Positions 64 through 27,838 of a DNA stretch of 64,000 bases are shown here, one piece after another; position 1 is the stretch's first letter; each line of letters starts with the position of its first letter. The position numbers were made by a program, and so were the translations under genes. The stretch lies in NCBI GenBank assembly GCA_947304115.1, contig CAMZAE010000007.1, forward strand, positions 1 to 64,000, written 5' to 3'. The notes under the pieces are model-generated. The model made no database searches. It worked only from the letters and a program-made list of their open reading frames with translations, and was not told the DNA's origin. The DNA is from an uncultured Prevotellaceae bacterium (GTDB lineage Bacteria; Bacteroidota; Bacteroidia; Bacteroidales; Bacteroidaceae).

Positions 64-1176
64 CTAATCCATTCCCGCCAGCTTAATCACCTCCTCGGCA
101 ATGATGCGTGCCGAGTCGCGCAAAGCCATCGCAGCGGCATTCTCGCCCAGTTCGTGGAGTTTTTCTGTGTCAACAACCGTCTCCAAGGCAAGCGAGATAA
201 GTTGTTCCGGAGCCTCTGCATCACGCATGAGCAATGCCGCCTGACGATTGACGAGAGCCATAGCATTGTGTGTCTGATGGTCCTCTGCCACATTGGGGCT
301 GGGCACCAGAATACTGGGCTTTCCCAACAAACAAAGTTCGCTGATGCTGCCTGCTCCTGCACGGCTGATGACAAGGTCGGCAAGGCGATAAGCCTGGTCC
401 ATGCGGCTGATGAAGTCTGTGACAACGAGGTTGGAGGGCTTGCCCTTTACGTCGAGCGTCTGCTCTATCTCCTTTTTATAATAGCTTCCTGTCTGCCAGA
501 TGAACTGCACGGACGAAGCAGCAATGCGTGAGAGGCTCCTGATGACGCTCTCATTGATTGTCCTTGCTCCAAGACTTCCTCCGACGATAAGGACGGTGGG
601 CTTTGAAGCACTCAGGCCAAAGGCGGCAGCACATTCCTCTCGTGTCAGAGTATCGTTGAGCAAGCTCTGTCGTACCGGATTGCCTGTGAGCAGAATGCGG
701 TCCTTGGGGAAGAAGCGTTCCATGCCTTCGTAGGCCACACATATCTTACGTGCCTTCTTTGCCAGCGTCTTATTGGTCAGGCCGGCAAAGCTGTTCTGCT
801 CTTGAATAAGGCAGGGGATACCTAACTCGTATGCCGCGTTGAGAGTCGCCGAGCTTGCATAACCGCCAACGCCCACTGCGACATGAGGCTTGAAGTCGCG
901 CAACGTCTGCTTCACCATACGCTTGCTACGCAGAAAGTCTATCAGGACACCTATGTTGCCTAACTTCCACAGGGGACGGAGCAAACCGCGCACAGGCAGT
1001 CCTACGATTTCGTATCCTGCAGCAGGCACACGTTGCATCTCCATCCTGCCCTCTGCACCGACGAAGAGAATCTTTACATTGGGATCAGCTTCGCGCAACG
1101 CATTAGCAATACTCACAGCAGGGAAAATATGCCCTCCCGTGCCGCCACCGCTTATTATGACTCTTAGATTATCCAT
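64..1176 (-). CDS. murG: UDP-N-acetylglucosamine--N-acetylmuramyl-(pentapeptide) pyrophosphoryl-undecaprenol N-acetylglucosamine transferase
   Basis: GGGTGGHIFPA N-terminus, ISRAGAGSISEL motif, position in the dcw cluster. Confidence 0.97.
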   Translation of the reverse strand: MDNLRVIISGGGTGGHIFPAVSIANALREADPNVKILFVGAEGRMEMQRVPAAGYEIVGLPVRGLLRPLWKLGNIGVLIDFLRSKRMVKQTLRDFKPHVAVGVGGYASSATLNAAYELGIPCLIQEQNSFAGLTNKTLAKKARKICVAYEGMERFFPKDRILLTGNPVRQSLLNDTLTREECAAAFGLSASKPTVLIVGGSLGARTINESVIRSLSRIAASSVQFIWQTGSYYKKEIEQTLDVKGKPSNLVVTDFISRMDQAYRLADLVISRAGAGSISELCLLGKPSILVPSPNVAEDHQTHNAMALVNRQAALLMRDAEAPEQLISLALETVVDTEKLHELGENAAAMALRDSARIIAEEVIKLAGMD

Positions 1177-1226
1177 AACCTTAATAATTCCTTAATCCCT
1201 AATCTTTAATCCTTAATCCCTAATCC

Positions 1227-2432
1227 CTAATCCTTCACATACTCCGGCTTTCGCCTTGCCGTATGGCTCACACTCAGTATCATGCCTATGTAGGTGCTGG
1301 TGATAAAGAGACTTGTACCGCCTCGGCTAACCAGTGGCAAGGGCTGTCCAGTCACAGGGAATGCTCCCACGGCCACTGCCATGTTCATCATGGCCTGAAC
1401 CACAATCATCAGCGCCAGCCCCATCACCAAATAAGACGGGAAGAGAGCCTTGCATTTCTGCGCGATGCGCAAAGAGCGATACATCAGCATGAGATAGAGC
1501 GCCAGCACAGCAACCGCTCCGATAATGCCGAGTTCTTCTATGATAATGGCATAGATGAAGTCGGAGAAAGCCTGTGGGATGAAGTCTCGCTGACGACTAT
1601 TGCCAGGACCTCGGCCGATGATGTTGCTCGTGGCTATTGCTACCTTGGCGTATGCCTTCTGCGGATTCTCCTGCGGCTTGTAGTCCTTGGGGTTGGCGGG
1701 ACGTTCCTGTTTGTCTGTAATGCGATGCACCCACGTCGGGACACGGTGCAGCGGGCCTTTGGACATGCTCCACTCCGTCAGTGTCTTTTCCGGGATGGCA
1801 TGAGCCACGCCGAATACCGTTCCTATGCCACCCAAGCCCAAACAGAGTGCGCCAATGAGTATTTCCTTGCGTATCTGTGCATAGAAGCAGATGCCGAACA
1901 GCGCTAATGCAATGATGAACGCGGTTGATGCATTCTCTGTAAAGATGAGGAGTATTGTGATAAAGGACGTTAGTGCCACTATCTTGAAGGCTGTCGGACT
2001 TGCTCCCTTCTCATCGCGCAGCGAAGAGAGAATGAAACAACTGAAGCCAACAAGACTCAGCTTGGCAATCTCACTGGGCTGGAAACGTATGAAGCCTATC
2101 TGTATCCAGCGGCCGGCATCGTTTGTCTTCTGACCGATGGCAAGCACGGCAATAAGCAGCAGAAGCGACACAAACATGCCTATCGTGCAGAACAGCTTGA
2201 AATAGTTGCACGGGATGAAATGCACAAGCCAAGCAATGAAGATGCCCATCAGCACGAAAGAGCCGTGCTGCATGATCGGGTCCCAATACGCACCGCTGCC
2301 AAACGTCATGCGCGAACTGGCACTATAGACCTCAATCAACGAGATGGCACAGAGGATGAGGAATACTGCCCATACGCCCAAATCGCCATGTATCAGGGTT
2401 TTGTCCTTTAACTTATTTAGTTTCATTGTCAT
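1227..2432 (-). CDS. ftsW: FtsW/RodA/SpoVE family lipid II flippase/polymerase
   Basis: Multi-TM protein with LPLVSRGGTSL signature; dcw synteny. Confidence 0.95.
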   Translation of the reverse strand: MTMKLNKLKDKTLIHGDLGVWAVFLILCAISLIEVYSASSRMTFGSGAYWDPIMQHGSFVLMGIFIAWLVHFIPCNYFKLFCTIGMFVSLLLLIAVLAIGQKTNDAGRWIQIGFIRFQPSEIAKLSLVGFSCFILSSLRDEKGASPTAFKIVALTSFITILLIFTENASTAFIIALALFGICFYAQIRKEILIGALCLGLGGIGTVFGVAHAIPEKTLTEWSMSKGPLHRVPTWVHRITDKQERPANPKDYKPQENPQKAYAKVAIATSNIIGRGPGNSRQRDFIPQAFSDFIYAIIIEELGIIGAVAVLALYLMLMYRSLRIAQKCKALFPSYLVMGLALMIVVQAMMNMAVAVGAFPVTGQPLPLVSRGGTSLFITSTYIGMILSVSHTARRKPEYVKD

Positions 2433-2463
2433 TGTCTTGTCTTTTATAGGATTGCCTATGAGT

Positions 2464-3798
2464 CTATAGGTTTCTCACTTGCTGACAGAACTGTTCGCCT
2501 CTGTCCTCCATATTCTTGAAGAGGTCGAAGCTGGCACAGCAGGGACTCAGCAGGACGGTATCGCCTGGCTTTGCCATGCGGTTGCACGCCTCCACACAAT
2601 CCTTCATGTTGTGGGTGTCAGCTACAGGAATGCCCATTCCATCGAAGAAATCGTGAAGCTTGCTGTTGTCTGCGCCAAGATAGACGAGGCCTTTGCACTT
2701 CTTCTGCACCAGTTCTTTGATGGCGTTGTAGTCATTGCCCTTGTCCTTTCCGCCAATGATGAGGATGGTGGGCGTGGTCATGCTCTCAAGGGCATACCAG
2801 CAGGCATCGACATTGGTGGCCTTCGAGTCGTTGATATACTGCACACCGCCCACGCGCGCCACCTTCTGCAGGCGGTGCTCCACGCCCTCGAAGTCGCTCA
2901 GGCTCTGACGCAGCGAGGCATCGTCGATACCGCTGATGTGGGCTGCAATGCCTGCCGCCAAACTGTTGTACATATTGTGTTTGCCTCGAAGACTCAGACT
3001 TTCCTGCTCCATGTTGAAGGGCGTGGGATACTCGATGACATACTGTCCGTCGGCAATGTAGCCTATCATGCCTTCTTTCTTGATGATGCTGAAGGGACAC
3101 ATCTTGGCCTTGATGCCATACTTCTTCAGTTCGGCTGCAATGATGGGGTCCTCATTCCAGTAGATAAAAGCGTCGTCCTCAGTCTGGTTCTGAACGATGC
3201 GCATCTTTGAATCGGTATATTTCTGCATCGAGTTCTCATAGCGGTCCAAGTGGTCGGGCGTAATGTTGAGCAGGATGGCAATGTTGGCACGGAATTCATA
3301 CATGTTGTCGAGCTGGAAGCTGCTCAGTTCGATGATGTAGTAGTCGTAGGTTGCGCCCTCGGCTATCTGGAGAGCCAGGCTGCGGCCGATGTTTCCTGCC
3401 AGGCCTGCATTGTAGCCTGCCTTGCGGAAAATGTGGTAGATAAGGCTCGTGGTTGTCGTCTTGCCGTTGGAGCCAGTGATGCAAATCATCTTGGCATCGG
3501 TGTAGCGTCCGGCAAACTCTATCTCGCTGATGATGGGAATGCCCGCATCTCTGACCTTCTGCACCATTGGTGCATCGTCGGGGATACCCGGACTCTTCAC
3601 AACCTCGCGGGCATTGAGGATGAGTTCTTCCGTATGCTTTCCCTCTTCCCAAGGCACGTCATACTCGCGGAGCACCTGCTTGTAGTTCTCCTTTATCCTG
3701 CCCATGTCACTGACGAAGACATCGAATCCCTTCACCTTTGCCAGCGCTGCGGCTCCCACGCCGCTCTCGGCGGCTCCTAATATCACTATTCTTTTCAT
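2464..3798 (-). CDS. murD: UDP-N-acetylmuramoylalanine--D-glutamate ligase
   Basis: GSNGKTTT ATP motif, LNITPDHLDRY, dcw synteny. Confidence 0.97.
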   Translation of the reverse strand: MKRIVILGAAESGVGAAALAKVKGFDVFVSDMGRIKENYKQVLREYDVPWEEGKHTEELILNAREVVKSPGIPDDAPMVQKVRDAGIPIISEIEFAGRYTDAKMICITGSNGKTTTTSLIYHIFRKAGYNAGLAGNIGRSLALQIAEGATYDYYIIELSSFQLDNMYEFRANIAILLNITPDHLDRYENSMQKYTDSKMRIVQNQTEDDAFIYWNEDPIIAAELKKYGIKAKMCPFSIIKKEGMIGYIADGQYVIEYPTPFNMEQESLSLRGKHNMYNSLAAGIAAHISGIDDASLRQSLSDFEGVEHRLQKVARVGGVQYINDSKATNVDACWYALESMTTPTILIIGGKDKGNDYNAIKELVQKKCKGLVYLGADNSKLHDFFDGMGIPVADTHNMKDCVEACNRMAKPGDTVLLSPCCASFDLFKNMEDRGEQFCQQVRNL

Positions 3799-3799
3799 C

Positions 3800-5065
3800 T
3801 TATCTTATCTTCAATGTTACGATGGCGAGGGCCGCCATGATAATGGTAACAATCCAGAAGCGGACGGTTATCTTAGACTCCAGCCAGCAGCCCTTGGGCC
3901 AGTTGATGAGCACCTTGAAGTCGGAGGGCAGTTGCCCTGGCTTGACGCGGAAGGTGTCGTGCAGCGGTGCACGTTTGACAACGCGCCACTTCTGTCCGCG
4001 CTTGTTGCCCATCTTGGCATAGTTGGTCTGCAGCAGCACGCTCAGGCTCTCCATGAAGAAGACGAAGCAAAGCAGTGGCAGGAGCAGTTCCTTGTGTATG
4101 ATTATGGCTGTCACGCCGATGATGCCGCCGATGGCAAGGCTGCCAGTGTCGCCCATGAATACCTGCGCTGGATAGGCATTGTACCAGAGGAAGCCGATGA
4201 GTGCGCCCACAAAAGCGCAGATGAAGATGACGAGTTCCTCGGAGCCTGGGATATACATTATATTAAGGTAGGCTGCCATGTGTATGTGGCTGCTGACGTA
4301 TGCCAATATGCCGAGGGCAATGCACATGATGGCGGCATTGCCTGCGCACAAACCGTCCATTCCATCGTTCAAATTCGAACCGTTGCTGACCGCCATCACA
4401 ATGAAGGTGGTGACGAAAACGAAGAATATCCAGCCTGCCGCCGTCCTGTACTTTCCCAGGAAGCGGAATATGTCGGCATAGTTGAGGTTGTTGTTCTTGA
4501 CAAAAGGAATGGTGGTAATGGTGCTCTTGACTTCTTCGCTGCGATGCGTCACGACTTGCTCAGTGCCTTGTCTTTCGTCCTGAATGTTCTCACAGATAAC
4601 GGCATCGGGACTCAGCCAGAGTGTCAGGCCAACGACCAAGCCAAGAACAGCTTGTCCGATGAGCTTGTAAATGGGGCGCAGACCGTCTTTCGTGACCTTC
4701 ATCTTGATGTAGTCGTCGGCAAAGCCCAGTGCGCCGAGCCACAGCGTGGTGAAGAGCATGAGGAGCATGTAGATGTTGCGAAGTCGTCCGAGCAACAGGC
4801 AGGGAATGAGGGTTGCTACAATAATGATGATGCCGCCCATCGTAGGCACACCTTTCTTGTCCACGCCATAGGGATCGATACTGGCGTCGCGCTGTGACTC
4901 GCTGCCGTTGTGCGTCTTCATCCACTTGACGAAGTACTGGCCGAACCACATGGAGATGAGCAGGCCCAGCACCAGCGTGAGCACCGCACGGAAAGAGATG
5001 TAGTGCCACAGATTGGCACCCGAAACTCCGAATTGGCCTAAGTATCTGAACAGGTAATATAGCAT
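3800..5065 (-). CDS. mraY: Phospho-N-acetylmuramoyl-pentapeptide transferase
   Basis: GVPTMGG, NLNDGMDGL, VFMGDTGSLA motifs. Confidence 0.97.
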   Translation of the reverse strand: MLYYLFRYLGQFGVSGANLWHYISFRAVLTLVLGLLISMWFGQYFVKWMKTHNGSESQRDASIDPYGVDKKGVPTMGGIIIIVATLIPCLLLGRLRNIYMLLMLFTTLWLGALGFADDYIKMKVTKDGLRPIYKLIGQAVLGLVVGLTLWLSPDAVICENIQDERQGTEQVVTHRSEEVKSTITTIPFVKNNNLNYADIFRFLGKYRTAAGWIFFVFVTTFIVMAVSNGSNLNDGMDGLCAGNAAIMCIALGILAYVSSHIHMAAYLNIMYIPGSEELVIFICAFVGALIGFLWYNAYPAQVFMGDTGSLAIGGIIGVTAIIIHKELLLPLLCFVFFMESLSVLLQTNYAKMGNKRGQKWRVVKRAPLHDTFRVKPGQLPSDFKVLINWPKGCWLESKITVRFWIVTIIMAALAIVTLKIR

Positions 5066-5121
5066 GTCTTTTTGATGACTTTTGTTGTTTTATTTTGTTC
5101 TCTTTTCCTTGTCTAAAATCC

Positions 5122-5209
5122 CCGCGTGCGGCGTTTGCAATCTCCGCGTGCGGCGTTGGGCATTTCCGCGTGGGGCGTTGGGCATTTCCGCAGGCGGCGT
5201 TTTCGAGTC
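5122..5209. repeat. Four tandem 22-bp units (CCGCGTGCGGCGTTgGGCATTT-like), locus A of the dispersed family
   Basis: CCGC(G/A)(T/G)G recurs at 5122, 5144, 5166 and 5188, exactly 22 bp apart; intergenic between murE and mraY. Confidence 0.9.
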
Positions 5210-5222
5210 CCCTCAGAGGGGG

Positions 5223-6674
5223 TTAAATTCCGAATGCTTCGCGTATCACTTCATGGTCGTCAAAGTGATGTTTCACGCCTTTGACAATCTGGTAATCTTC
5301 ATGCCCCTTGCCGGCCACAAGGATGACATCGCCCGGCTGCGCCATTGTGCAGGCGGTGCGGATGGCTTCCCTGCGGTCCACTATGCTGATGACGTTTCGC
5401 CTCTGGGCACTGTCGAGACCTGCCAGCATGTCGTTGATGATGTCCTGCGGCTCTTCATTTCTGGGATTGTCACTCGTAATGATGACGCGGTCGCTGTGCT
5501 TCACGGCCTCCTGTGCCATCAAGGGGCGCTTCCCCTTGTCGCGGTTGCCGCCTGCTCCGCAAACCGTCCAGCATTGGCCTTTGCCTTGCAGGACCTCGTT
5601 GATTGTCGTGAGGACATTGACCAGGGCATCGGGCGTGTGGGCGTAATCGACGATGGCCGTGACGCCTTCCTTCGAGCGGATGGCCTCAAAACGGCCGTTG
5701 ACGGGCTTCTGCGCACTGAGCAGGACGAGTGCCTGCTGCGGCTCGACACCCAGCATGACCGTTGCGCCATAGACGGCAAGCAGGTTGCTGACGTTGAAAC
5801 GCCCCACGAACTGCACGCTCACCTCCCGTCCGTCAATCTCCAGGTCCATGCCCTCGAAGCTCTCCTCCATGATGCGGGCCTTGAAGTCGGCCGCAGAGTG
5901 GAGGGAATAGGTCTTGACCTTCGCCTTGCAGTTCTGCACCATGACCATGCCGTTGCGGTCGTCGGCATTGACGATGGCGAAAGCGTCTGCCGGAAGAGCA
6001 TCGAAGAAGCCCTTCTTGGCGTCGCGGTAGTTCTCGAAGGTGCCGTGGTAGTCCAGGTGGTCGCGCGTGAGGTTGGTAAAGATGCCGCCACTGAATACCA
6101 GGCCGCCTATACGCTTCTGGCTGACGCTGTGGCTGCTGACCTCCATGAAGGCGTAAGCACAGCCTTCGTCCGCCATCTGCCCAAGCAGACGGTTCAGGGT
6201 GATGGGATCAGGCGTTGTGCATTCAGTGGGAACAGGCTCGCCGTCGATGTAGTTGCAGACGGTGCTGACGAGGCCGCACTTGTATCCGAGCTGGCGGAAG
6301 ATGCTATAGAGCACGGTGGCGATGGTCGTCTTGCCATTGGTGCCTGTCACACCGATAAGGTGCATCCGCTTGGTAGGCTCGCCGAAGAAGTGTGTTGCCA
6401 AGACACCCACAACGTCCTCTGTGTTGGGATAGACAAGATAGGTGACATCTTCTGCAATCGTTTCGGGCATCTGCTCGCACACCACGACACGGGCGCCAAG
6501 CTCTATGGCTTTGCCTATGAACGTATGCCCGTCCACCTGAGTGCCACGCATTGCGACAAAGGCTGCGTCCTTTTGGATGCGGCGGCTGTCTATTTCTATG
6601 CCTGTTACTTCTCTGTCGATGCTGCCCACCACCTTTTGCGGCTTGCAGTCTTGTATGAGTTGCTGAAGGTTCAT
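5223..6674 (-). CDS. murE: UDP-N-acetylmuramoyl-tripeptide synthetase
   Basis: [26 protein letters not shown] motifs; dcw synteny. Confidence 0.96.
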
Positions 6675-6704
6675 GGTCTTTATTTTATATAGGTCGTATA
6701 GGTC

Positions 6705-8822
6705 TTATTTTCGCTTCGGTGCTGCTGTCAGTGTTATGGTCTTCCCTTTTATGGCAGGGGAGCCTGGGGCAATGTCCTGTTTGGCAATCTGTCCGCAACC
6801 GTTGATGCGGACACGAAGGCCTCGCTGTTGCAGTGCATAGACTGCATCCTTTACGCCCATGCCTGTCACATCCGGCACCTTGTTTAAGGAAACCGTGTCT
6901 GCCTCTGTCAGGCTGAGTTGATTCTTTGCTATGCCCATGCCCTCGACGATGGCTTTGGCTTTTTCCATGCTGCCCTTTGTCGCCTCGGGAACAAAGACGG
7001 AGTTCGTGTCGGCGGCTGCAACGGCATTGCGCACAGAGTCGCGCGACATGATATATTGTGATATCTCGCTGAAGACAGGGCCGCATTGCCCACCGCCCGA
7101 AGCTGGCAGCCCCTGCTTCCTGATGCAGACGATACAACTGTATTTGGGATCGTCGCTGGGGAAGTAGCCGCAGAAGCTGACCATGTACTTGCGGCCGGCA
7201 TAGGAGCCGTTCTCGCTGAACTGTGCTGTTCCTGTCTTGCCGCTCACCTTAAAGAGTTTGCCGCCATTGCCAGCTTTCCTGCCGAGGCCGCCGCTGACAA
7301 CATGCTCCAAGCAGTACTGGATATCGCGAAGCGTGGAGGGTTTGCAGATGCGCTCCTTGATGACTTCTGTCGGGAACTCGCGCACCACCATACCGTCCTT
7401 AAGCTCTGCCTTCACAAAGCGCGGCTTCACCATCTTGCCGCCGTTGGCAATGGCGTTGTAGAACGTAAGGGTGCTGATGGGCGGAAGCATTGTGACGTAA
7501 CCGATGCTCATCCAGGGCAGGTCGGTCTTGCTCCAGTAGCGCTCCTTGCTGAGGGGATGCGGAATGCGGGGAGTGGGTGCATTGTGGAAGGGGAGGTCGA
7601 GAGGAATGCCCACACCCTCGCGAGCCAAACCATCGACATAGGCGGCAGGATTGCTACTGTATGCCTCATCAATAATCTTGCTTACCCCAATGTTGCTACT
7701 CTGCCCCAGGATGTCCTCCACCTTGAGCACACCATAGCCGCCACGATGCCAGTTATGATCCTTCATGTTCCGGCCATGCATATTGACGATGCCTGGAGCA
7801 CAATCCACCGCCTTGTCCAAAGTGATCTTCCCGTCCTCAAGTGCTACCATAATACTGCCGGTCTTGAAGGTGGAGCCGGGTTCCCAAAGGTCATAGATGG
7901 CATGGTTATCCATCTCGTAGTACTCACCGTCCTGAGCACGGGAGAGATTGACGATGGCCTTCACGTCGCCCGTCTTGACTTCCATGACAACGGCAACGCC
8001 CACCTCGCCGTTGACGGTTTCCTCCTTCAGCTTGCGGCGAAGGGTGCGGTCGGCAAAGTCCTGTATGTTGATGTCGATGGTGGTGAGCAGGTCATGCCCG
8101 TTCTCTGCCTGAGCGTCAACGACGGGGACCCTTCTGTTGCGCACCGTAATGAAGTGCTTCGAACCCGGCTTGCCGCGCAGGATGCTGTCGAAGCTCAACT
8201 CCAGTCCGCACTTGGCTTGGCTGCTCGTGTCGTTGTAAAGTTCGCCAATGGTGCGGCTGGCCAGTCCGCCGTATGGCTTGAGGCGCAGCAGCATCTCGTC
8301 TGCATGGAAGCCGCTGCGGTACATGCTCTCCCTGAGGAATGGCAACTCCTTACAAGCCCTGTATTGAACGTAGCTGGCCAGCTTCGGGTAGATGCGCCAG
8401 GAGTATTTGCCACGAGCCTTGCCCTGAAGCAGACGCTCGCGGAACCACCTTGCGTCGCGGTCGGGGAAGATTTGTGCCAGTCCGTCAACGATGCTGTCTA
8501 ACTTCTGGACGAATGTCGTGTCGCGGAACTCGCGTGTCTTCCTCTCAATGCTCGAATCAGGATCATGCACGGCAAAGTCCATGTAGAGTGCGTACTTGGG
8601 CACGGTGCCGGAGAGCACCTGGCGGTCACACGAAAGGATGTTGCCACGGTTGGCCGGTATCTTGGCCGTCTTGCTGTTGCGCCCCACCTCCTTCCAGTAG
8701 TCGCTCTCTGGCGGCAGCATCGTGTAGAGTGCTCTGCCCAGGATATACACCCCTGTCAGAAACATCAGCACAAAGATGACGATGTACCGCCTTGGACCCT
8801 TATCTTTATTGTTAGCTTGCAT
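6705..8822 (-). CDS. ftsI: Penicillin-binding protein / division transpeptidase (FtsI/PBP3-like) with C-terminal PASTA domain
   Basis: EPGSTFK, SSN, KTGTAQ catalytic motifs; VPDVTGMGVKDAVYALQQRGL PASTA-like tail. Confidence 0.94.
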   Translation of the reverse strand: MQANNKDKGPRRYIVIFVLMFLTGVYILGRALYTMLPPESDYWKEVGRNSKTAKIPANRGNILSCDRQVLSGTVPKYALYMDFAVHDPDSSIERKTREFRDTTFVQKLDSIVDGLAQIFPDRDARWFRERLLQGKARGKYSWRIYPKLASYVQYRACKELPFLRESMYRSGFHADEMLLRLKPYGGLASRTIGELYNDTSSQAKCGLELSFDSILRGKPGSKHFITVRNRRVPVVDAQAENGHDLLTTIDINIQDFADRTLRRKLKEETVNGEVGVAVVMEVKTGDVKAIVNLSRAQDGEYYEMDNHAIYDLWEPGSTFKTGSIMVALEDGKITLDKAVDCAPGIVNMHGRNMKDHNWHRGGYGVLKVEDILGQSSNIGVSKIIDEAYSSNPAAYVDGLAREGVGIPLDLPFHNAPTPRIPHPLSKERYWSKTDLPWMSIGYVTMLPPISTLTFYNAIANGGKMVKPRFVKAELKDGMVVREFPTEVIKERICKPSTLRDIQYCLEHVVSGGLGRKAGNGGKLFKVSGKTGTAQFSENGSYAGRKYMVSFCGYFPSDDPKYSCIVCIRKQGLPASGGGQCGPVFSEISQYIMSRDSVRNAVAAADTNSVFVPEATKGSMEKAKAIVEGMGIAKNQLSLTEADTVSLNKVPDVTGMGVKDAVYALQQRGLRVRINGCGQIAKQDIAPGSPAIKGKTITLTAAPKRK

Positions 8823-8834
8823 AATCTCTAATCC

Positions 8835-9311
8835 TTAATCCTTCACATTTATTGTGAACGGCGCAACCTTGCTGGGTGTCAATGTGCTGTCGCCTTGTTC
8901 ACGGAGCTTCTGCTCGAGCTGGCTCTGGCGGCAGAGTTGTGTGAGTTCGCTGACGCGGGTGATGCAGCGGTAGCGCCAGTCCTTGAGTTCTGCCTCAAGC
9001 TCCGTCTCCTTCATCATCTCCACCTGTGCCTGATAGCCGTTGGTGATGTAGAGAAAGATGCCGGCCAGGACAAGCAGCACCATCTTCCACTGGCTGAGAA
9101 ACCAGCGAGGGGCAGCATCCAGCATCTGTCGTATGCCGGCAGCCGTCATTTCGTCGGTCTCGTCTTCGTCGCCAACGAGCGAGCGCATCAGCTTCTCCTT
9201 GTCGCTGACAGGCTCTACAGGCTCTGAGGTCTCAAGGCTCTCTGAAAACTCTGGGGTTTCCGAGAGCACCTCCTGCTGTTCCTCCAGATTGTCTAATTCT
9301 ATCTCAGCCAT
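8835..9311 (-). CDS. FtsL-like small single-TM division protein
   Basis: One TM segment (WKMVLLVLAGIFLYI), located between ftsI and rsmH. Confidence 0.75.
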   Translation of the reverse strand: MAEIELDNLEEQQEVLSETPEFSESLETSEPVEPVSDKEKLMRSLVGDEDETDEMTAAGIRQMLDAAPRWFLSQWKMVLLVLAGIFLYITNGYQAQVEMMKETELEAELKDWRYRCITRVSELTQLCRQSQLEQKLREQGDSTLTPSKVAPFTINVKD

Positions 9312-9338
9312 ATCATTTTAATCCCTAATCCTTAATCC

Positions 9339-10283
9339 CTAATCCCTCTTCGCCGCTATGCGGAGCTTTGCCGAGCGGCTGCGAGGGTTGCGGCTTTGCT
9401 CTTCGGCATCGGGAGTGATGACACTGCGGTTGACGGCTTCCAATGGCGCGTTGCTGCGACCGAAGACGTCGGTCTCCACCTTTCCCTCTGCGTTGCCAGC
9501 CTTTATGATGTTCTTCACCATTCGGTCCTCGAGGGAGTGATAGGTGAGGATACTCAGGCGCCCGCCTGGTCGCAACAGCTCGGTGGCTGCGCAAAGCATT
9601 TGCCTAAGGGCAAGCATCTCGCCGTTCACCTCGATGCGTAGTGCCTGAAAGACACGTGCCAGGTCCTTTTTCTCGCGGTCATAACCCATTAAGGGCTTTA
9701 GCACTTCCGCCAGCTCCATCGTTGTGGCGATGGACTTCTGCTGACGTGCCTTGACGATTGCAGAAGCGATGCGACGGCTGTTCTTCAGTTCGCCATAGAG
9801 ATAGAGGATGTCTGAAAGCTGCTCCTCGCTGTACTCCTCCACGACGCGCTTTGCCGTGAGGCTGGCCCTTTGGTTCATCCGCATGTCGAGCGGTGCGTCG
9901 AAGCGGAAGCTGAAGCCCCGCCTTTCCTCGTCGAAGTGATGACTGCTTACGCCCAAGTCTGCCAGTATGCCGTCCACCTGCTCATGTCCATAGTAGAGCA
10001 TCCAGTTCTTCAAGAAGCGGAAGTTACTGCGGATGAAGGTGAAGTTCCCATCGCCCTCCATTATGGGGAGGGAGTCTTCCAGTTCCTTTGCATTCTTCGC
10101 GGCATCCTCGTCTTGGTCGAAGCTGTAGAGATGTCCCGTGCCTCCAAGCCGCCGGAGAATCTCTTTGCTATGGCCGCCGCCACCAAAGGTGAGGTCCGCA
10201 TATATGCCTCCGGGCTTGATGTCCAACCCGTCAACTGCCTCCTTCAGCAGCACCGGCACATGATATGTGTATTCACCTTTCAC
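9339..10283 (-). CDS. rsmH: 16S rRNA (cytosine(1402)-N(4))-methyltransferase
   Basis: HVPVLLKEAVDGL, LGVSSHHFDEERRGFSFR, LTYHSLEDRMVK motifs. Confidence 0.96.
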   Translation of the reverse strand: MKGEYTYHVPVLLKEAVDGLDIKPGGIYADLTFGGGGHSKEILRRLGGTGHLYSFDQDEDAAKNAKELEDSLPIMEGDGNFTFIRSNFRFLKNWMLYYGHEQVDGILADLGVSSHHFDEERRGFSFRFDAPLDMRMNQRASLTAKRVVEEYSEEQLSDILYLYGELKNSRRIASAIVKARQQKSIATTMELAEVLKPLMGYDREKKDLARVFQALRIEVNGEMLALRQMLCAATELLRPGGRLSILTYHSLEDRMVKNIIKAGNAEGKVETDVFGRSNAPLEAVNRSVITPDAEEQSRNPRSRSAKLRIAAKRD

Positions 10284-18563: not shown

Positions 18564-18915
18564 AAAGTCCGCACCTTTGGCTCGTTTCTTCTTTATCTTC
18601 ACTTTTCAACGACTCCCCTATCCTTACCTTGTATTTAATAATGTTTGGGCTATCTGGTGCGGACTTCGGGAAGATTTAACCACAACTCACCAGCTTATTT
18701 TCCTCTTGAGCACACTTGGTGCGGACTTCGGGAACTTTTTTGGGGCGTTTCACGTGTTCTGGGTGACAAACCCTTGCTAAGGAGCTACAATCTTCCCAAA
18801 GTCCGCACCTTTTGGACAAACTTGGCTTGTTGGTGCGGACTTCTGGAACTTTTTTGCCTTCTTTCTAACAAATTTACATGAAAACGGCCGCTTCAAAACT
18901 GAAAAAAGGTGCGGA
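18564..18915. repeat. Left iteron cluster: GGTGCGGACTTnnGGAAnnTTT in both orientations
   Basis: Copies at 18564-18575 (-), 18656-18677 (+), 18718-18741 (+), 18789-18809 (-), 18832-18855 (+); partial at 18908. Confidence 0.85.
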
Positions 18916-19041
18916 AACACCTGACTTGCTTTAAGAAAAATCCTTACCTTTTGGAAAAATGTTTACATTTCTAAGTTTTCCCAAACTTATACTCCGCTCT
19001 GTTTGCAACTGACTGATTATCAAGTTCTAAATTCCGCACGT

Positions 19042-19130
19042 GGAAATGACAAACGCCCCACGTGGCGTTGACCATCTCACCATTAGGAGTTGGCCATTTC
19101 CCTGTGGGGCGTTGCGTATCTCGGCGTGGA
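19042..19130. repeat. Degenerate 22-bp repeat array, locus C
   Basis: GGAAAT/GGCGTT/GGAGTT/GGCGTT at 19042, 19064, 19086 and 19108, 22 bp apart. Confidence 0.75.
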
Positions 19131-19267
19131 GGACTGGATCATGCCCTATTTCGGAGACTCAATCGTCACGTAGAGAACCCTGTATTTCCTGATTTTTTCT
19201 TTACAACATTTTTGAAAAGAAAGAAAAAACCGTCTGTTCCAACCACTCCCCCACCCTATCCTGGGGT

Positions 19268-19639
19268 TCAAACCCACTGATAGACACTGTCCTCGTACTG
19301 CTCAATGATACGCATCGACTCGGCATCGAGTCCCTGTCCCTCTTTGTAGTGCTGCTTGAGGAACTGGTGCAAAGCCGCTCTGACCACGTTCTGCTTCTCC
19401 AATTTCTGGCGGAAGGCAATGTAATCCAAGGCGTTACGGTCGTCCTCTGCCGTAAAAAAGGAGAAGCCACCAACCTTCTGTATGGTGCAAATGCGGCGTA
19501 AGGGCTTTGGTGCAGGCGTCTCCTGGACAATCTGGCTGCGAACCGCCTCGTTGGTTGCCAGAGGCCTCGGAGCGACATAATTCCGCGTTGCCTCCTCGGC
19601 TACACGACTGATATTCAATGATTTCTTCTTGATTGCCAT
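19268..19639 (-). CDS. Small basic protein downstream of parA; putative partition partner / DNA-binding protein
   Basis: Same strand and next to parA; basic N-terminus; helix-rich YIAFRQKLEKQNVVRAALHQFLKQHY C-terminus reminiscent of RHH-type adaptors. Confidence 0.5.
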   Translation of the reverse strand: MAIKKKSLNISRVAEEATRNYVAPRPLATNEAVRSQIVQETPAPKPLRRICTIQKVGGFSFFTAEDDRNALDYIAFRQKLEKQNVVRAALHQFLKQHYKEGQGLDAESMRIIEQYEDSVYQWV

Positions 19640-19723
19640 GATCTTCTATATTAAAGGTTAAAGCGTTGAAAGGTTAAACTGTTTAAGCATTGAAAAGTTG
19701 AAAACTCTGGTCTGCTGTTTACT

Positions 19724-19768
19724 AAATACCCAAATGTTTCTATATACAAGTATTCAGATATTTACATA
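19724..19768. repeat. Candidate partition site copy 1
   Basis: AAATACCCAAAT...TATTTACATA, matching 20715-20745 and 20921-20950. Confidence 0.45.
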
Positions 19769-20649
19769 CTTCTCTCCGTAATAAAGCGCTGGTAGGCAGC
19801 GTTGGCTATCTGGCCCCATCGCGCCGGTGTCCAAGTCTTCGGACGCACCTTGCGACCAATCATAAACTCGGCAACCCTCATATAGTCGTCTGCAACAGGG
19901 CTGTTGCTGGCATACTCAAAGAGAGACATTTCGTAAGCGACTGATTCTGTGCAACGTACACTTTCACGAACACTCACGGGAAAGAGCGGAGCCTTCACTT
20001 CTTCGATGTTACTATAATACTCCTTGACTTCACGGCTGATGCTACGGTTCTTGTTCCAACGCACCAGGAGATAGCCCATTATCTTGACCGGACAGCGCAG
20101 TTGCGTGTGAACCTTGTCAATATAGTCAAGCAGACGCGGCAACCCTTGCAAACTATAAATGCCCGCCTCGGTCGGAACAATGACAAAGTCGCTGGCTACC
20201 AGGGCGTTAGTGTTCATCAGCGTCTCGCCTCCAGGGGCACAGTCGATGAAGATATAATCGTACATGTCGCGTATCCTGCAACCGCTCTCAGGATCAACAA
20301 GGTCAAGGAAATCTGCCAAACGTCGCTCGCGATTATACATCAGTTGCAGTTCCGCATTGATATTACTCATGCTGTGGCTGCCTGGCACATAATCCAGACC
20401 GTCGTAGCGCGTATAAATCGGCAGGGGAAGAGACTCGCCGGGCTGTGCATCGTGGAGCCACTCGTAGATGGTGCTATCTGCCTCAAGATGAACGGTTTTA
20501 TCGACAGTGTCAGTCAGATTGCACTGCGGATCCGTGTCTACGAGCAGCACCTTCTTTCCGAGCAACCAGAGGGCAAAGCCCAAATTGACGCAGGATGTTG
20601 TCTTGGCGCAACCACCCTTGTCATGTAAAAGAGAAATAACTTGTGACAT
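19762..20649 (-). CDS. parA: ParA/Soj-family partition ATPase
   Basis: Deviant Walker A HDKGGCAKTTS, DTDPQCNLT, YIFIDCAPGGETL. Confidence 0.92.
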   Translation of the reverse strand: MSQVISLLHDKGGCAKTTSCVNLGFALWLLGKKVLLVDTDPQCNLTDTVDKTVHLEADSTIYEWLHDAQPGESLPLPIYTRYDGLDYVPGSHSMSNINAELQLMYNRERRLADFLDLVDPESGCRIRDMYDYIFIDCAPGGETLMNTNALVASDFVIVPTEAGIYSLQGLPRLLDYIDKVHTQLRCPVKIMGYLLVRWNKNRSISREVKEYYSNIEEVKAPLFPVSVRESVRCTESVAYEMSLFEYASNSPVADDYMRVAEFMIGRKVRPKTWTPARWGQIANAAYQRFITERSM

Positions 20650-20714
20650 ATAAATAAACCACTTTGTAATAAAATCTGATGCAAAGATAATGCATTTGAA
20701 AGAAAACCGCAAGA

Positions 20715-20950
20715 AAATACCCAAATACTTTCACATATTTACATATTTTTATATTATAAGATATACAACTATCTGTATATTTTCCAGCAATTAAGCACAT
20801 TTTTGAGCAAAACACACCTGAATACTCGTATATTTTACACTATTCAAATATACAGATATTATATAGTATATCTATATGTGCGTATTTGAACACTTGCACA
20901 CTTGAATGCTTATATATTTTAATACCCACATATACAAATATCTACATATT
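20715..20950. repeat. AT-rich intergenic with two more candidate partition-site copies (20715-20745, 20921-20950)
   Basis: AAATACCCAAATACTTTCACATATTTACATA and AATACCCACATATACAAATATCTACATATT. Confidence 0.45.
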
Positions 20951-20990
20951 GGAATGTACAACTACTTTGCATGTATGGAAGCGGCAAATA

Positions 20991-21366
20991 GTTCTTAAAG
21001 TCCGCACCAATGAATATGTGTTCGCAAAGTCCGCACCAAAAAGGAGGAAGTTTGCACAAAGTGTTCCGGTTATTAGCACCTAATGTTCCCGAAGTTCGCA
21101 CAAAACATAATAGGGCAGGTTGGAAATCAACGTGTTAGCCTACACCTATAATTAATATAAGACAATCAAAATTATAAATAGATGAATTTTCTACAGGATA
21201 TCGTTTATCACTTTTTCCTTTTATATAGATTATACTGTTTAGTAAGTGGCTATTTATCAATCAAATGCCTCCGATTAGGTGCGGACTTTTGGAAGATTTT
21301 GTGCGATAAAAGGGAAGTTCTTGTGAGCAGAAGATGAAGATTTGGTGCGGACTTTGAGAACTTTTC
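20991..21366. repeat. Right iteron cluster
   Basis: Copies at 20991-21008 (-), 21021-21037 (-), 21084-21101 (-, degenerate), 21278-21300 (+), 21344-21365 (+); degenerate forms near 21571 and 21667. Confidence 0.85.
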
Positions 21367-21713
21367 GCATTTTTTCCCTTCCAGGGGTTAACAAAGGCAG
21401 GCAGACACTGTATATATATAATAGAAGGGTAGGGGAGTCTAAAATGGAAGAGTGGGGTAGGGGAGTTGTGATGAACCTGGTCCTCAAAAACAGAAGAAGG
21501 CGGTTAACGCCCGTTGAACAACACGGTGAAACTGCCAGGAGCATACAGGTATTCATATAGGGGAGAATTAGGTGCGTAGTCTCGAAAAACAGAAGTGCAT
21601 ATTTTCTGGAAAAACGAGGTGAGAAAACACATATATAATAATGTGCGAGACATAATAACAAACAAAGTGCGAGAGTTTGGAACATTTTCTTATTAAAAAA
21701 TTTGTATATAAAG

Positions 21714-23207
21714 ATGGAATGGTTTAATTTTGCAGCAGAAAACGAAGAATTAGACGAAATGGCAAAGAAAAAAGGGCCGGCCATAGTCAGCACTACCAAC
21801 GAGCTGGTGCAGACATTTTCGGGCAACCGTGATTTGGATTTTATCCTCAATCCGATAAGTTATACGCAGATACGTGGCAACTTTTCATTGGTGCAGACCA
21901 ACCTGATGATTGCTATCATTGCGCAGTTGCAGGACCGCATCCGCGAGCAGCTCAGCATGGGCGAGAGCACATTCCTCTTCAAGCCGGAGGACCTGGCTGG
22001 CAACCTGCTCAACTTCGAGATTCCTCTGAAGGAGCTGGGCATCAGCCCGAAGAAGTACGACGAACTGGAGGCGGCCTGCGATGCCCTGTTGCATGTGGAT
22101 ATGTCCTACAAGCGCTATGACGAGTATGAACGTCAGACGTATATCGTGAAGCAGAACGTCTTTCACAAGATTGAGTTTCCGAAGGCGGACATCAATGCTG
22201 CAGGCGAGAAGGTGGCCTACAAGGGTGGGGTGCGAAGGAAGGGCGTCATCAAGATCTCGATGGTCGATGAGAGCGCACGCGAGATCCTGAACCTTCGCAA
22301 GGGCTATACGCGCCACCTGAAAGGTATCACCCAGCTTTGCCGCAGCCCGCGCACGCCGCGACTCTATATCTATCTGAGTGCCTGGCGCACGCGCGGCGAG
22401 TGCACCGTGAACTACATCGACCTGAAGGAGTTCTTCGGCGTCCTCACTTTCAGCAAGGACCGCAAGCGCATCACGGAGAACAGGTACGTCAAGTACGGTG
22501 CCTTTCACCGCGACGTGCTCGACCCCGTGCTCAAGGAGATGAAGAAACTCTCCGACGAGGGCAAGGTGGAGTTCTGCTTTGAGTACGAACCTGTCTATCC
22601 TCGCGGTGTCACTCGTGGCGACCCGGACAGCATCCATTTCACCCTCATCGAGGGCAAGATGGGGCAGGCGCAGCAGCACGAGAACTACTTAGGCAAGATG
22701 CGGGCCAAGCTCATCACCCGCTATTCACTTCAGCCGATGGAATGGTCGAAATTGGAGGACCTTATCTACGACGACCTCGACCTCAAGGAGGAATTGGCTC
22801 GCATCGACAAGCTCATCGAGGAGAAGCAGCCCGACAACGTCCATGCCTACGTCACCGAGGTGCTTTATCGTTGGCTTTTGGAGCATCAGAAACCCAGGCA
22901 GCCCGAGTTCGCGGAGGCCGTGGAAGTGAAAGAAGAAGAGTCCGACCGCCCGTTTGTTCAGCCCGTCTATCTGCAGAAATGGGAACTCTGGATGGAGAAG
23001 GCCCGCGAGCGTCTTGGCGAGGAGTTCTACAACAAGTACATGACTTGTGCCAGCCTCTGGTCGGTGCGCGACAAGAACGTCTTTGTCTCCGTGCCCAACA
23101 AGTTCGTCTCCGAGCAGTGGGAAGAGCATCTCAGCGAAATCATCAGCTACTTCTACAGTGCCTTCGGTGCCGACAAGAAGCTGACATACATCTTCCAGGA
23201 AGTGTGA
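21714..23207 (+). CDS. RepB-type (Rep_3 superfamily) replication initiator with a DnaA domain I-like C-terminus
   Basis: TNELVQTFSGNRDLDFILNPISYTQIRGNFSLVQTNLMIAII N-terminus; C-terminal LWMEKARERLGEEFYNKYMTCASLWSVRDKNVFVSVPNKFVSEQWEEHLSEIISYFYSAFGADKKLTYIF; adjacent iterons and parA. Confidence 0.85.
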   Translation: MEWFNFAAENEELDEMAKKKGPAIVSTTNELVQTFSGNRDLDFILNPISYTQIRGNFSLVQTNLMIAIIAQLQDRIREQLSMGESTFLFKPEDLAGNLLNFEIPLKELGISPKKYDELEAACDALLHVDMSYKRYDEYERQTYIVKQNVFHKIEFPKADINAAGEKVAYKGGVRRKGVIKISMVDESAREILNLRKGYTRHLKGITQLCRSPRTPRLYIYLSAWRTRGECTVNYIDLKEFFGVLTFSKDRKRITENRYVKYGAFHRDVLDPVLKEMKKLSDEGKVEFCFEYEPVYPRGVTRGDPDSIHFTLIEGKMGQAQQHENYLGKMRAKLITRYSLQPMEWSKLEDLIYDDLDLKEELARIDKLIEEKQPDNVHAYVTEVLYRWLLEHQKPRQPEFAEAVEVKEEESDRPFVQPVYLQKWELWMEKARERLGEEFYNKYMTCASLWSVRDKNVFVSVPNKFVSEQWEEHLSEIISYFYSAFGADKKLTYIFQEV

Positions 23208-25584: not shown

Positions 25585-26709
25585 ATGGCTAAAGAGAATC
25601 TAAGTGCCGCAAAGTCGGCAAAGAAGGATGAGTTCTACACGCAGATGAGTGACATTGAGCGGGAGTTGCAGCACTACTGGCCGCACTTCCGCGATAAAGT
25701 CGTACTCTGCAATTGCGACGACCCCTACGAAAGCAACTTCTTCAAGTACTTTGCACTCCGCTTCAATCAGCTTGGCTTGAAGAAGCTGATATGTACTTGT
25801 TTCGATGGCTCACCTGTTCAGGGAAACGAACTTCTGCTTGACTTCGGTGACTTTACGGACGGCCCAAAGAAGATTGCCTACAAAGTCGAGATAACGGAAG
25901 TAAGGGACTTGAACGGCGACGGAGCCGTTGATTTGACAGATGTTCAGTATCTGCTGAAGAACGACAAGAATGCGATTGCCCTGCTGAAGCAACATGGTGA
26001 CTTCCGCAGCGCCGAGTGTATAGAGCTACTAAAGCAAGCAGATATTGTTGTGACCAATCCGCCTTTCTCGCTTTTTAGGGAATATTTAGGGCAGCTGATG
26101 CAGTACGAGAAGAAATTTTTGATTGTAGGTCATCAGAATGCAATTACATATAAAGAAGTATTTCCCTTGATTAAGGCTAATATGGTTTGGCTTGGATATG
26201 GTTTTAAGGGTGGAGCAGCACATTTCTTCTCTCCCTATGAAGACATCGCGACAGCTAACGACCATAAGAAAGATATGATACGTGTCTCAGGTGTTAACTG
26301 GTTTACCAATTTAGAAATACCTAAAAGAAACGAAGAGATGGATTTAGTTAATAGGTATTCTCCAGAAGAATACCCAACTTACGACAATTACGATGCAATT
26401 AATATCGACAAAACAGCTGAAATTCCTTGCGATTATGAAGGTGCGATGGGGGTACCTATTACATTCCTTGATAAGTATTGCCCTGAACAGTTCGAAATAA
26501 TTACATTAGGAATAGGAGAAGGAAACTTTACTCCCACGAAGAAATATCAGAAATTCCGCAATCCTCAGACATTAGAGCCTATCTCTGATAAACGTGACTT
26601 TTTGCTATATGTAAGAAAAACAAATGGGAAATATTTGACTTCTGAAGGGTATAGGGTAGACAAAGTATATGCAAGAATTATTATCCGCAACAAACACCCT
26701 AAAATATAA
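25585..26709 (+). CDS. EcoRI-family adenine-specific DNA methyltransferase
   Basis: SAKKDEFYTQMSDIERELQHYWPHF...NCDDPYESNFFKYFALRF; TNPPFSLFREY catalytic motif. Confidence 0.9.
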   Translation: MAKENLSAAKSAKKDEFYTQMSDIERELQHYWPHFRDKVVLCNCDDPYESNFFKYFALRFNQLGLKKLICTCFDGSPVQGNELLLDFGDFTDGPKKIAYKVEITEVRDLNGDGAVDLTDVQYLLKNDKNAIALLKQHGDFRSAECIELLKQADIVVTNPPFSLFREYLGQLMQYEKKFLIVGHQNAITYKEVFPLIKANMVWLGYGFKGGAAHFFSPYEDIATANDHKKDMIRVSGVNWFTNLEIPKRNEEMDLVNRYSPEEYPTYDNYDAINIDKTAEIPCDYEGAMGVPITFLDKYCPEQFEIITLGIGEGNFTPTKKYQKFRNPQTLEPISDKRDFLLYVRKTNGKYLTSEGYRVDKVYARIIIRNKHPKI

Positions 26710-26713
26710 CGCT

Positions 26714-27838
26714 ATGATGACAATTAAGCGAATAAAAGTAACCGTTGGTGAGATAACTAACGGCTACATTAATAACGACGAGCAAGGCGTGCGCGGCTAT
26801 GGCGGCTTGCTTGACATTCGTCCGCCCTACCAGCGCGAGTTCATCTATAACGACAAGGAACAGCAAGCCGTCATTACGACTGTGCTGGCAGGCTATCCAT
26901 TGAACGTGATGTATTGGGTGAAGCGCTCGGAAGATGCCGAATGCCCTTACGAAGTGATGGACGGTCAGCAGCGAACCCTTTCGCTCTGCGAATATGTGGC
27001 AGGCAAGTTCTCCTACGACTTCAAGAACTTCTTCAATCAGCCCGCAGACATCCAAAAGAAGATTCTCGATTATGAGCTTGACATCTACGTCTGCGAAGGA
27101 ACACCATCAGAGAAGCTTGGTTGGTTCCAGACAATCAACCTCGCGGGCAAGCCCCTCAACGACCAGGAGATAAACAACGCCATCTTTGCAGGACATTTCG
27201 TGACGGATGCCAAGAAACATTTTTCTAAATCGAACTGCGGAGCTTATCGTTTGGGCAAAGACCTCGTGAACGGCACGCCCATCCGTCAGGACTTCCTCAA
27301 GAAGGCACTTGAATGGATGGCCGACCACGAAACGAGAGGCGGACACAGGCAGACGCTTGTCGGCTATATGGGCGACCATCAGCGCGACCCCAACGCCAAC
27401 AACCTCTGGACTTACTTCCAGAATGTGCTCAACTGGGCAATAACGAACTTCGACATGAAGAAGTTCAAAAAGATTATGAAGGGCTTGGATTGGGCTTGGC
27501 TTTATGACAAGTATGGAAGCGAGACGCTCGACACCGTCGCCCTTGCCCAACGCATCTCGGCTTTGATGCGCGACAGCGAGATACAGAAGCAGTCGGGCAT
27601 CATTCCCTTTGTGCTGACAGGCGACGAGCGGCACCTTGACCTTCGTGCCTTCCCAGAAGACATCAAGCTTGCCGCTTGGGAAAGACAGAATCACATCTGT
27701 CCCCTTTGCGGCAGGGAGTTTGACTACGAATTCATGGAAGGCGACCATATCACCCCCTGGCGCGAGGGCGGACGTACCGTCATCGAGAACTGCCAGATGC
27801 TTTGCCGAGAATGTAATAGAAGGAAAGGAGCGAAGTAA
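26714..27838 (+). CDS. DUF262 (ParB-like nuclease fold) plus C-terminal HNH endonuclease
   Basis: PPYQREFIY, VMDGQQRTLSL, HICPLCGREFDYEFMEGDHITPWREGGRTVIENCQMLCRECNRRKG. Confidence 0.92.
   Translation: MMTIKRIKVTVGEITNGYINNDEQGVRGYGGLLDIRPPYQREFIYNDKEQQAVITTVLAGYPLNVMYWVKRSEDAECPYEVMDGQQRTLSLCEYVAGKFSYDFKNFFNQPADIQKKILDYELDIYVCEGTPSEKLGWFQTINLAGKPLNDQEINNAIFAGHFVTDAKKHFSKSNCGAYRLGKDLVNGTPIRQDFLKKALEWMADHETRGGHRQTLVGYMGDHQRDPNANNLWTYFQNVLNWAITNFDMKKFKKIMKGLDWAWLYDKYGSETLDTVALAQRISALMRDSEIQKQSGIIPFVLTGDERHLDLRAFPEDIKLAAWERQNHICPLCGREFDYEFMEGDHITPWREGGRTVIENCQMLCRECNRRKGAK

Follow-up and report, generated by a model that had tools for sequence, protein, structure and literature searches.

We identified a plasmid-type replication initiator in an uncultured Prevotellaceae bacterium that carries a DnaA domain I at its C-terminus. 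Its most likely role is to fire the origin of a replicon that resembles a chromosome and is probably a second one. The gene (rep) lies within the window, by which we mean the whole stretch of 64,000 nucleotides analysed here (GenBank assembly GCA_947304115.1, contig CAMZAE010000007.1, positions 1 to 64,000), where it is accompanied by a partition gene and iterons, close to the minimum of the cumulative GC skew (Table 1). What is new is the joining of DnaA domain I to a Rep_3/RepE-like body; a C-terminal domain I on a plasmid-type initiator is already known.

Table 1. Features of the rep locus and its surroundings, in window coordinates.
Feature	Position	Strand	Basis or remark
dcw cluster: rsmH, ftsI, murE, mraY, murD, ftsW, murG	64..10283	-	core genes on the rep replicon
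Iteron cluster 1	18565..18842		five GGTGCGGACTT-core copies in both orientations; repeat search
123-aa ORF downstream of parA	19268..19639	-	no Pfam family; together with parA in 24 related loci
parA, Walker-type partition ATPase	19762..20643	-	293 aa with the ATG at 20643 as start; beside rep in 24 related loci
AT-rich stretch, candidate unwinding element	20661..20960		100-base windows of up to 76% AT
Iteron cluster 2	20998..21102	-	two exact copies, a third with AAGTTCGCAC; repeat search
AT-richest 100-base window of the origin region, candidate unwinding element	21141..21260		79% AT
Cumulative GC-skew minimum of the window	21271		443 bases ahead of rep; flanked by iteron clusters 2 and 3
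Iteron cluster 3	21278..21354	+	two copies right upstream of rep; repeat search
rep, Rep_3-type initiator with C-terminal DnaA domain I	21714..23207	+	497 aa; Rep3_N 8.3e-8, RepE54 fold
WH1 (Rep3_N), residues 51-221	21864..22376	+	Pfam
WH2 (Rep3_C), residues 254-309	22473..22640	+	weak Pfam match, 5.5e-3; RepE-like fold
Linker, residues 395-409	22896..22940	+	tether-like position; pLDDT < 50
DnaA domain I, residues 417-494	22962..23195	+	Pfam, profile-profile, AlphaFold; helix-helix-strand-strand-helix-strand

A RepE-like initiator ending in DnaA domain I

The product of rep is a RepE-like, Rep_3-type initiator. With the whole protein as query, the Pfam match to Rep3_N exceeds its cut-off (33.2 bits vs 22.4) and that to Rep3_C falls below it (17.4 bits vs 21.1), while the full-length AlphaFold model (pLDDT 76.5) matches RepE54 of mini-F in Foldseek (E 1.2e-6, TM 0.72 on the target) and, separately, a DnaA domain I structure (4TPS). 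The linker ahead of the tail is modelled with low confidence and is probably flexible. No AAA+ (Bac_DnaA) domain was detected in Rep, each genome having a single Bac_DnaA that is located elsewhere.

The initial annotation had read the last ~75 residues as a DnaA domain I appended C-terminally to a winged-helix initiator of the RepB type. Profile, profile-profile and predicted-structure comparisons and a taxonomic survey bear this out, and we regard residues 417-494 as a genuine, confirmed DnaA domain I. In the whole protein, Pfam places DnaA_N (PF11638) at residues 423-478 (7.8e-4), equivalent to window positions 22980-23147, the first base being the same as the start proposed in the initial annotation. 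The tail alone matches DnaA_N at 3.2e-5 (24.0 bits, just under the curated cut-off of 24.6) and is also matched by the NCBIfam DnaA model (4.5e-6). Only two DnaA_N matches occur in the window's genome, namely dnaA on contig C4 and the Rep tail. Among homologous tails, 42 of 44 match DnaA_N at E <= 0.1 (best 1e-12), and the domain I pattern is retained at the C-terminus even where identity of the Rep body is just 36-45%. Aligned with hhalign, the tail profile matches the domain I of Bacteroidota DnaA over 73 columns (probability 98.5%, P 1.9e-15), and when run on 399 genomes of the family it retrieves the true DnaA in most of them (1e-6 to 1e-18). A chance or low-complexity match is excluded by the number of matching tails, the hhalign P value and this retrieval of true DnaA. 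The same profile scores 40-52 bits on Bacteroidota DnaA, 31 on the DnaA-like replicases of Rhodobacterales and 20 on E. coli DnaA. By sequence profile, the tail is thus most like domain I of Bacteroidota DnaA, which points to Bacteroidota DnaA as the source of the domain.

The predicted structure agrees with the sequence profiles. The AlphaFold2 model of the tail (pLDDT 94.2) has the element order H-H-E-E-H-E, and its best match in the PDB is domain I of B. subtilis DnaA (4TPS; TM 0.74-0.78, rmsd ~2), followed by DciA and then by domain I of E. coli and Mycoplasma DnaA. Fold, element order and the W6-type and F46-type residues are shared with the DnaA domain I structures 4TPS, 2E0G and 2JMP. 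Rep differs from DnaA in carrying the domain at the C-terminus instead of the N-terminus, and in having neither the AAA+ domain nor the DnaA-box-binding domain.

Conserved residues and selection

In E. coli DnaA, W6 mediates the dimerisation of domain I, and E21 and F46 contribute to DnaB binding (PMC5448010); the E. coli row of our alignment agrees with the MG1655 record except for the start codon. The W6-equivalent is aromatic in all 50 tails, P43 is likewise retained in 50 of 50, and the F46-equivalent is F or Y in 44 of 50. The tails lack the E21-type DnaB contact and mostly have F at this position. Bacteroidota DnaA has S there and also lacks E21, so the replacement is lineage-specific.

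Values of dN/dS were ~0.08 in the tail, 0.02-0.05 in the winged helices and 0.04-0.11 in the linker, and are rough, as synonymous sites are near saturation. Judging from these values, the tail is under purifying selection. Identities of body and tail covary closely (r = 0.94, 1081 pairs). The low dN/dS of the tail and its divergence in step with the body suggest a single old fusion that has been maintained by selection.

Distribution of the fusion

Within the genus, 48 of 139 genomes encode a homologue of Rep, and 27 loci were gathered from GTDB contigs. Proteins combining Rep with DnaA_N occur in three genera of one family (g1, which is the window's genus, g198 and g207), and none was found among 393 genomes sampled from the order. 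A DnaA_N scan of 395 genomes of the class returned a second copy solely in G000 and G218. Related Reps of g4, g3 and other genera end ahead of the tail position, and no significant tail was detected in the Reps of Bacteroides plasmids, of the 568-kb replicon of P. nigrescens or of Prevotella E2-28, nor a significant DnaA_N tail in RepM or in the Reps of pBF9343 and Segatella. The tail is therefore not a general property of RepB proteins, which had been raised as a possibility that would undermine its reading as DnaA domain I. The C-terminus of Segatella plasmid Reps resembles domain I by eye, a resemblance that neither Pfam nor the tail profile supports. Tail-like matches on short faecal scaffolds labelled 'Bacteriophage sp.' proved to be fragments of ordinary chromosomal dnaA, and a search of PHROGs gave nothing consistent. 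We found no description of a Rep_3-DnaA_N fusion in the open-access literature searched.

G051, G036, G021, G105, G124 and G072 each encode two Rep-DnaA_N proteins, belonging to subgroups that are 74% and 44% identical to the Rep of the window. The rep copies at L021 (G124:C4), L026 (G072:C82) and L030 (G003:C51) contain in-frame stops or split frames and are apparently decaying copies or assembly errors. The long Reps of g207 (for example in G603, G724 and G542), with frames of 571 aa, match the profile only to column 453, and their tail is possibly diverged or truncated.

The putative origin region and GC skew

Downstream of parA lies a small ORF whose product is a candidate centromere-binding partner of ParA. 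The window holds nine exact GGTGCGGACTT iterons, where 1.1 copies would be expected over its full length with one mismatch allowed, along with degenerate ones. The iteron core GGTGCGGACTT/GGTGCGAACTT is conserved in the group of Reps that are 85% identical, and more distant groups have other repeats, as expected of Rep-specific sites. No exact DnaA box (TTATCCACA) and no cluster of such boxes at the origin was found in the window, although this consensus may not be that of the lineage; words with one mismatch to TTATCCACA are scattered across the window, including the origin region. The lack of a box cluster is weak evidence for independence from DnaA. The canonical parS, TGTTNCACGTGNAACA, is absent from six genomes and so gave no pointer to a main origin. 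Three CACGTG words occur at 18751, 19037 and 19059 in the interval from the small ORF to iteron cluster 1, the last two separated by 22 bases, and are possible partition sites. On the other side of rep, on the forward strand at 25585-27838, an EcoRI-type adenine methyltransferase (PF13651, 1e-146) is followed by a protein with GmrSD_N and HNH domains, suggesting a restriction or defence pair beside the origin. In another locus (L064, G121:C2:104441-108615), ParA is 83%, the small ORF 68% and Rep 36% identical to those of the window; the initiator was seemingly exchanged there while the partition locus was retained.

The proximity of rep to the skew minimum in the window recurs in related genomes. 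In G024 the minimum falls at 109835 of a 248-kb contig with rep at 111745, the flanking 110 kb being negative and 138 kb positive; in G032 it falls at 37340 (rep at 34069), in G051:C69 at 81522 (rep, of the 44% type, at 80799) and in G121:C2 at 107586 (rep at 105940). Overall, the minimum lies 0.4-3.3 kb upstream of rep in 5 of 6 contigs, representing five species and three Rep subgroups, and the probability of a minimum so near rep under block shuffling was 0.0008, 0.002, 0.054, 0.003 and 0.001 for the five contigs. On the sixth, G036:C66, which carries a 74% relative, the skew is negative throughout and does not change at rep. Among the 21-kb loci, 19 of 20 have negative skew upstream of rep and 17 of 22 have positive skew downstream. 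Sampling of G050 for a second minimum placed none firmly; contig C16 turned weakly positive near its end, and C10 and C17 turned negative near theirs. We conclude that the rep-parA-iteron locus at the skew minimum (18565-21714) is likely a chromosome-scale origin of plasmid type.

Core genes on the Rep replicon

Plasmid-type replication and partition genes share one replicon with core genes, a linkage seen on contigs of draft genomes. In the window, no more than 10 kb separates the dcw cluster from the parA end of the locus, and the linkage of the cluster to rep is retained in G024, G032 (35 kb apart) and G050. On the longer contigs among those of the window, G024 and G032, ftsZ joins the cluster (rsmH-ftsI-murE-mraY-murD-murG), and gyrB is found on the rep contigs of G024 and G032. 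The contig of G050 carries tuf, rplKA, rpoBC, gyrB and dcw along the 187 kb that precede rep. In three relatives from g4 whose assemblies consist of two contigs, a tail-less Rep, MurE and RpoB are on one contig and dnaA is on the other. No rpoB was found in G032; G000 and G024 carry theirs on a contig other than that of rep, and linkage of rpoBC to rep was therefore seen only in G050 and the g4 genomes. In 6 of 6 genomes, dnaA is single-copy and located on a contig other than that of rep. The skew minimum, the core genes and the location of dnaA on another contig together lead us to regard the locus as the place where replication of a chromosome-like replicon, most likely a second chromosome, begins.

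How the tail may act

Based on our findings, we consider it somewhat probable that Rep, a RepE-like iteron initiator equipped with domain I, loads the helicase at its own origin. We propose that its two winged-helix domains would bind the iterons and that Rep would open the AT-rich DNA, while many tethered domain I modules, self-associating via the W6-type face, would present a docking surface like that of DnaA. This array would bring DnaB, perhaps together with DciA, which is encoded as a separate gene in the window's genome, to the opened DNA, and the replicon, probably a second chromosome, would load its helicase there largely or wholly independently of DnaA. The proposal that Rep opens the origin and domain I recruits DnaB draws on DnaA and on RK2 TrfA, the long form of which loads the helicase without DnaA in Pseudomonas (PMC4980987). 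Recruitment of the helicase is the likeliest role for a tail that keeps the W6-type and F46-type residues and has replaced E21, and we infer that it may load DnaB without DnaA, or compete with DnaA, as the initial annotation had suggested. Against helicase loading by the tail, E. coli DnaA requires domain III as well to load DnaB. Tail-less g4 Reps on a replicon with core genes further suggest that the tail is dispensable for Rep-driven replication in the family. We also put forward, tentatively, a broader reading, in which a chromosome-scale replicon bearing rpoBC, tuf, gyrB and dcw is initiated by Rep with a captured domain I and not by DnaA; the helicase would be loaded by the DnaA-derived part in the absence of DnaA itself, and the Rep replicon may be the larger one of the cell.

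The main rival to helicase recruitment is timing through pairing with DnaA. The tail would then be a coordination device that pairs with domain I of DnaA or of neighbouring Reps, or with regulators of DnaA, and that would keep the Rep replicon in time with the DnaA-driven chromosome or set it in competition with it. We regard this as possible but doubtful. The self-association face is better conserved than the full DnaB surface, and a cell with multiple replicons, with dnaA on a contig other than that of rep, needs to time them; however, the F46-type residue is likewise kept in most tails, and pairing of the tail with DnaA is itself a supposition. The two roles are compatible, as domain I performs both at once in DnaA (PMC5448010). 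It is, by comparison, very improbable that the tail belongs to the KH-like helicase-loader domains, such as that of DciA, and resembles DnaA domain I in fold only. This was suggested by the rank of DciA as second-best structural match (8a3v, E 5.8e-3), and the DciA fold is indeed akin to that of DnaA domain I. Sequence profiles largely refute it, as DciA (PF05258) matches none of the tails of which nearly all match DnaA_N, and the tail profile picks out DnaA domain I across most of the family's genomes, with Bacteroidota DnaA scoring top.

The locus itself could be read as the relic of an integrated plasmid, in which case rep, parA and the iterons would not form the origin of the chromosome that contains them and the skew would be coincidental. 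Such integration is common, the gene set is of plasmid type, the flanks beyond rep-parA differ among species, and the unchanged skew around rep in G036:C66 would be expected. We nevertheless consider a relic improbable, as the minimum lies close to rep on five contigs with low block-shuffle probabilities for each, the module is intact and under strong selection in dozens of species, and the locus is near the dcw cluster in four genomes (the window's, G024, G032 and G050).

Comparison with known systems

The body of Rep and its nearby iterons have their counterparts in RepE of mini-F and other Rep_3 (PF01051) initiators, including the Rep of pBF9343, which share the WH1-WH2 architecture. Unlike Rep, the Rep_3 initiators compared here (RepM and those of pBF9343, P. 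nigrescens, Prevotella E2-28 and Segatella) have no significant DnaA_N tail. Among replicons with essential genes, P. intermedia OMA14 has two chromosomes, the second of which encodes a Rep_3 protein (PMC4755523), and both this chromosome and the RctB system of Vibrio resemble the Rep locus in combining a Rep-type initiator, an extra replicon and essential genes. The study of OMA14 detected neither iterons nor partition genes nor a change of skew on chromosome 2 and described its origin as unknown (PMC4755523), whereas all three are present at the Rep locus. RctB, as described in PMC6090056, differs from Rep in that no DnaA domain I is detectable in it. It is an open question by what means second-chromosome initiators of plasmid type recruit the helicase, and the same source states that contact between RctB and DnaB 'has to be shown'. 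The Rep locus offers a compact, testable case in which the initiator comes with the docking module of DnaA, iterons and a partition gene lie nearby, and the origin is defined by skew.

The closest parallel to the fusion is found in Rhodobacterales plasmids, where replicases of 235 aa annotated as 'DnaA N-terminal domain-containing' carry the domain at the C-terminus and adjoin partition genes. These constitute the 'DnaA-like' replicon type and are functional replicases (PMC9025767; the type is attributed there to Petersen et al. 2011, doi 10.1093/molbev/msq310). Like Rep, these plasmid or chromid initiators combine an unrelated DNA-binding part with a C-terminal DnaA domain I and have partition genes nearby. 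Only the tail aligns with that of Rep (profile columns 402-473), the body of these alphaproteobacterial proteins being non-homologous, whereas Rep has a Rep_3/RepE-like body and iterons and belongs to Bacteroidales. DnaA domain I has thus become attached to unrelated initiators on at least two occasions, in Rhodobacterales and in Bacteroidales, each time at the C-terminus, and we argue from this repeated joining that it is a portable recruitment module. Its fusion to Rep in gut and rumen bacteria suggests how a replicon with core genes could recruit the copying machinery by itself.
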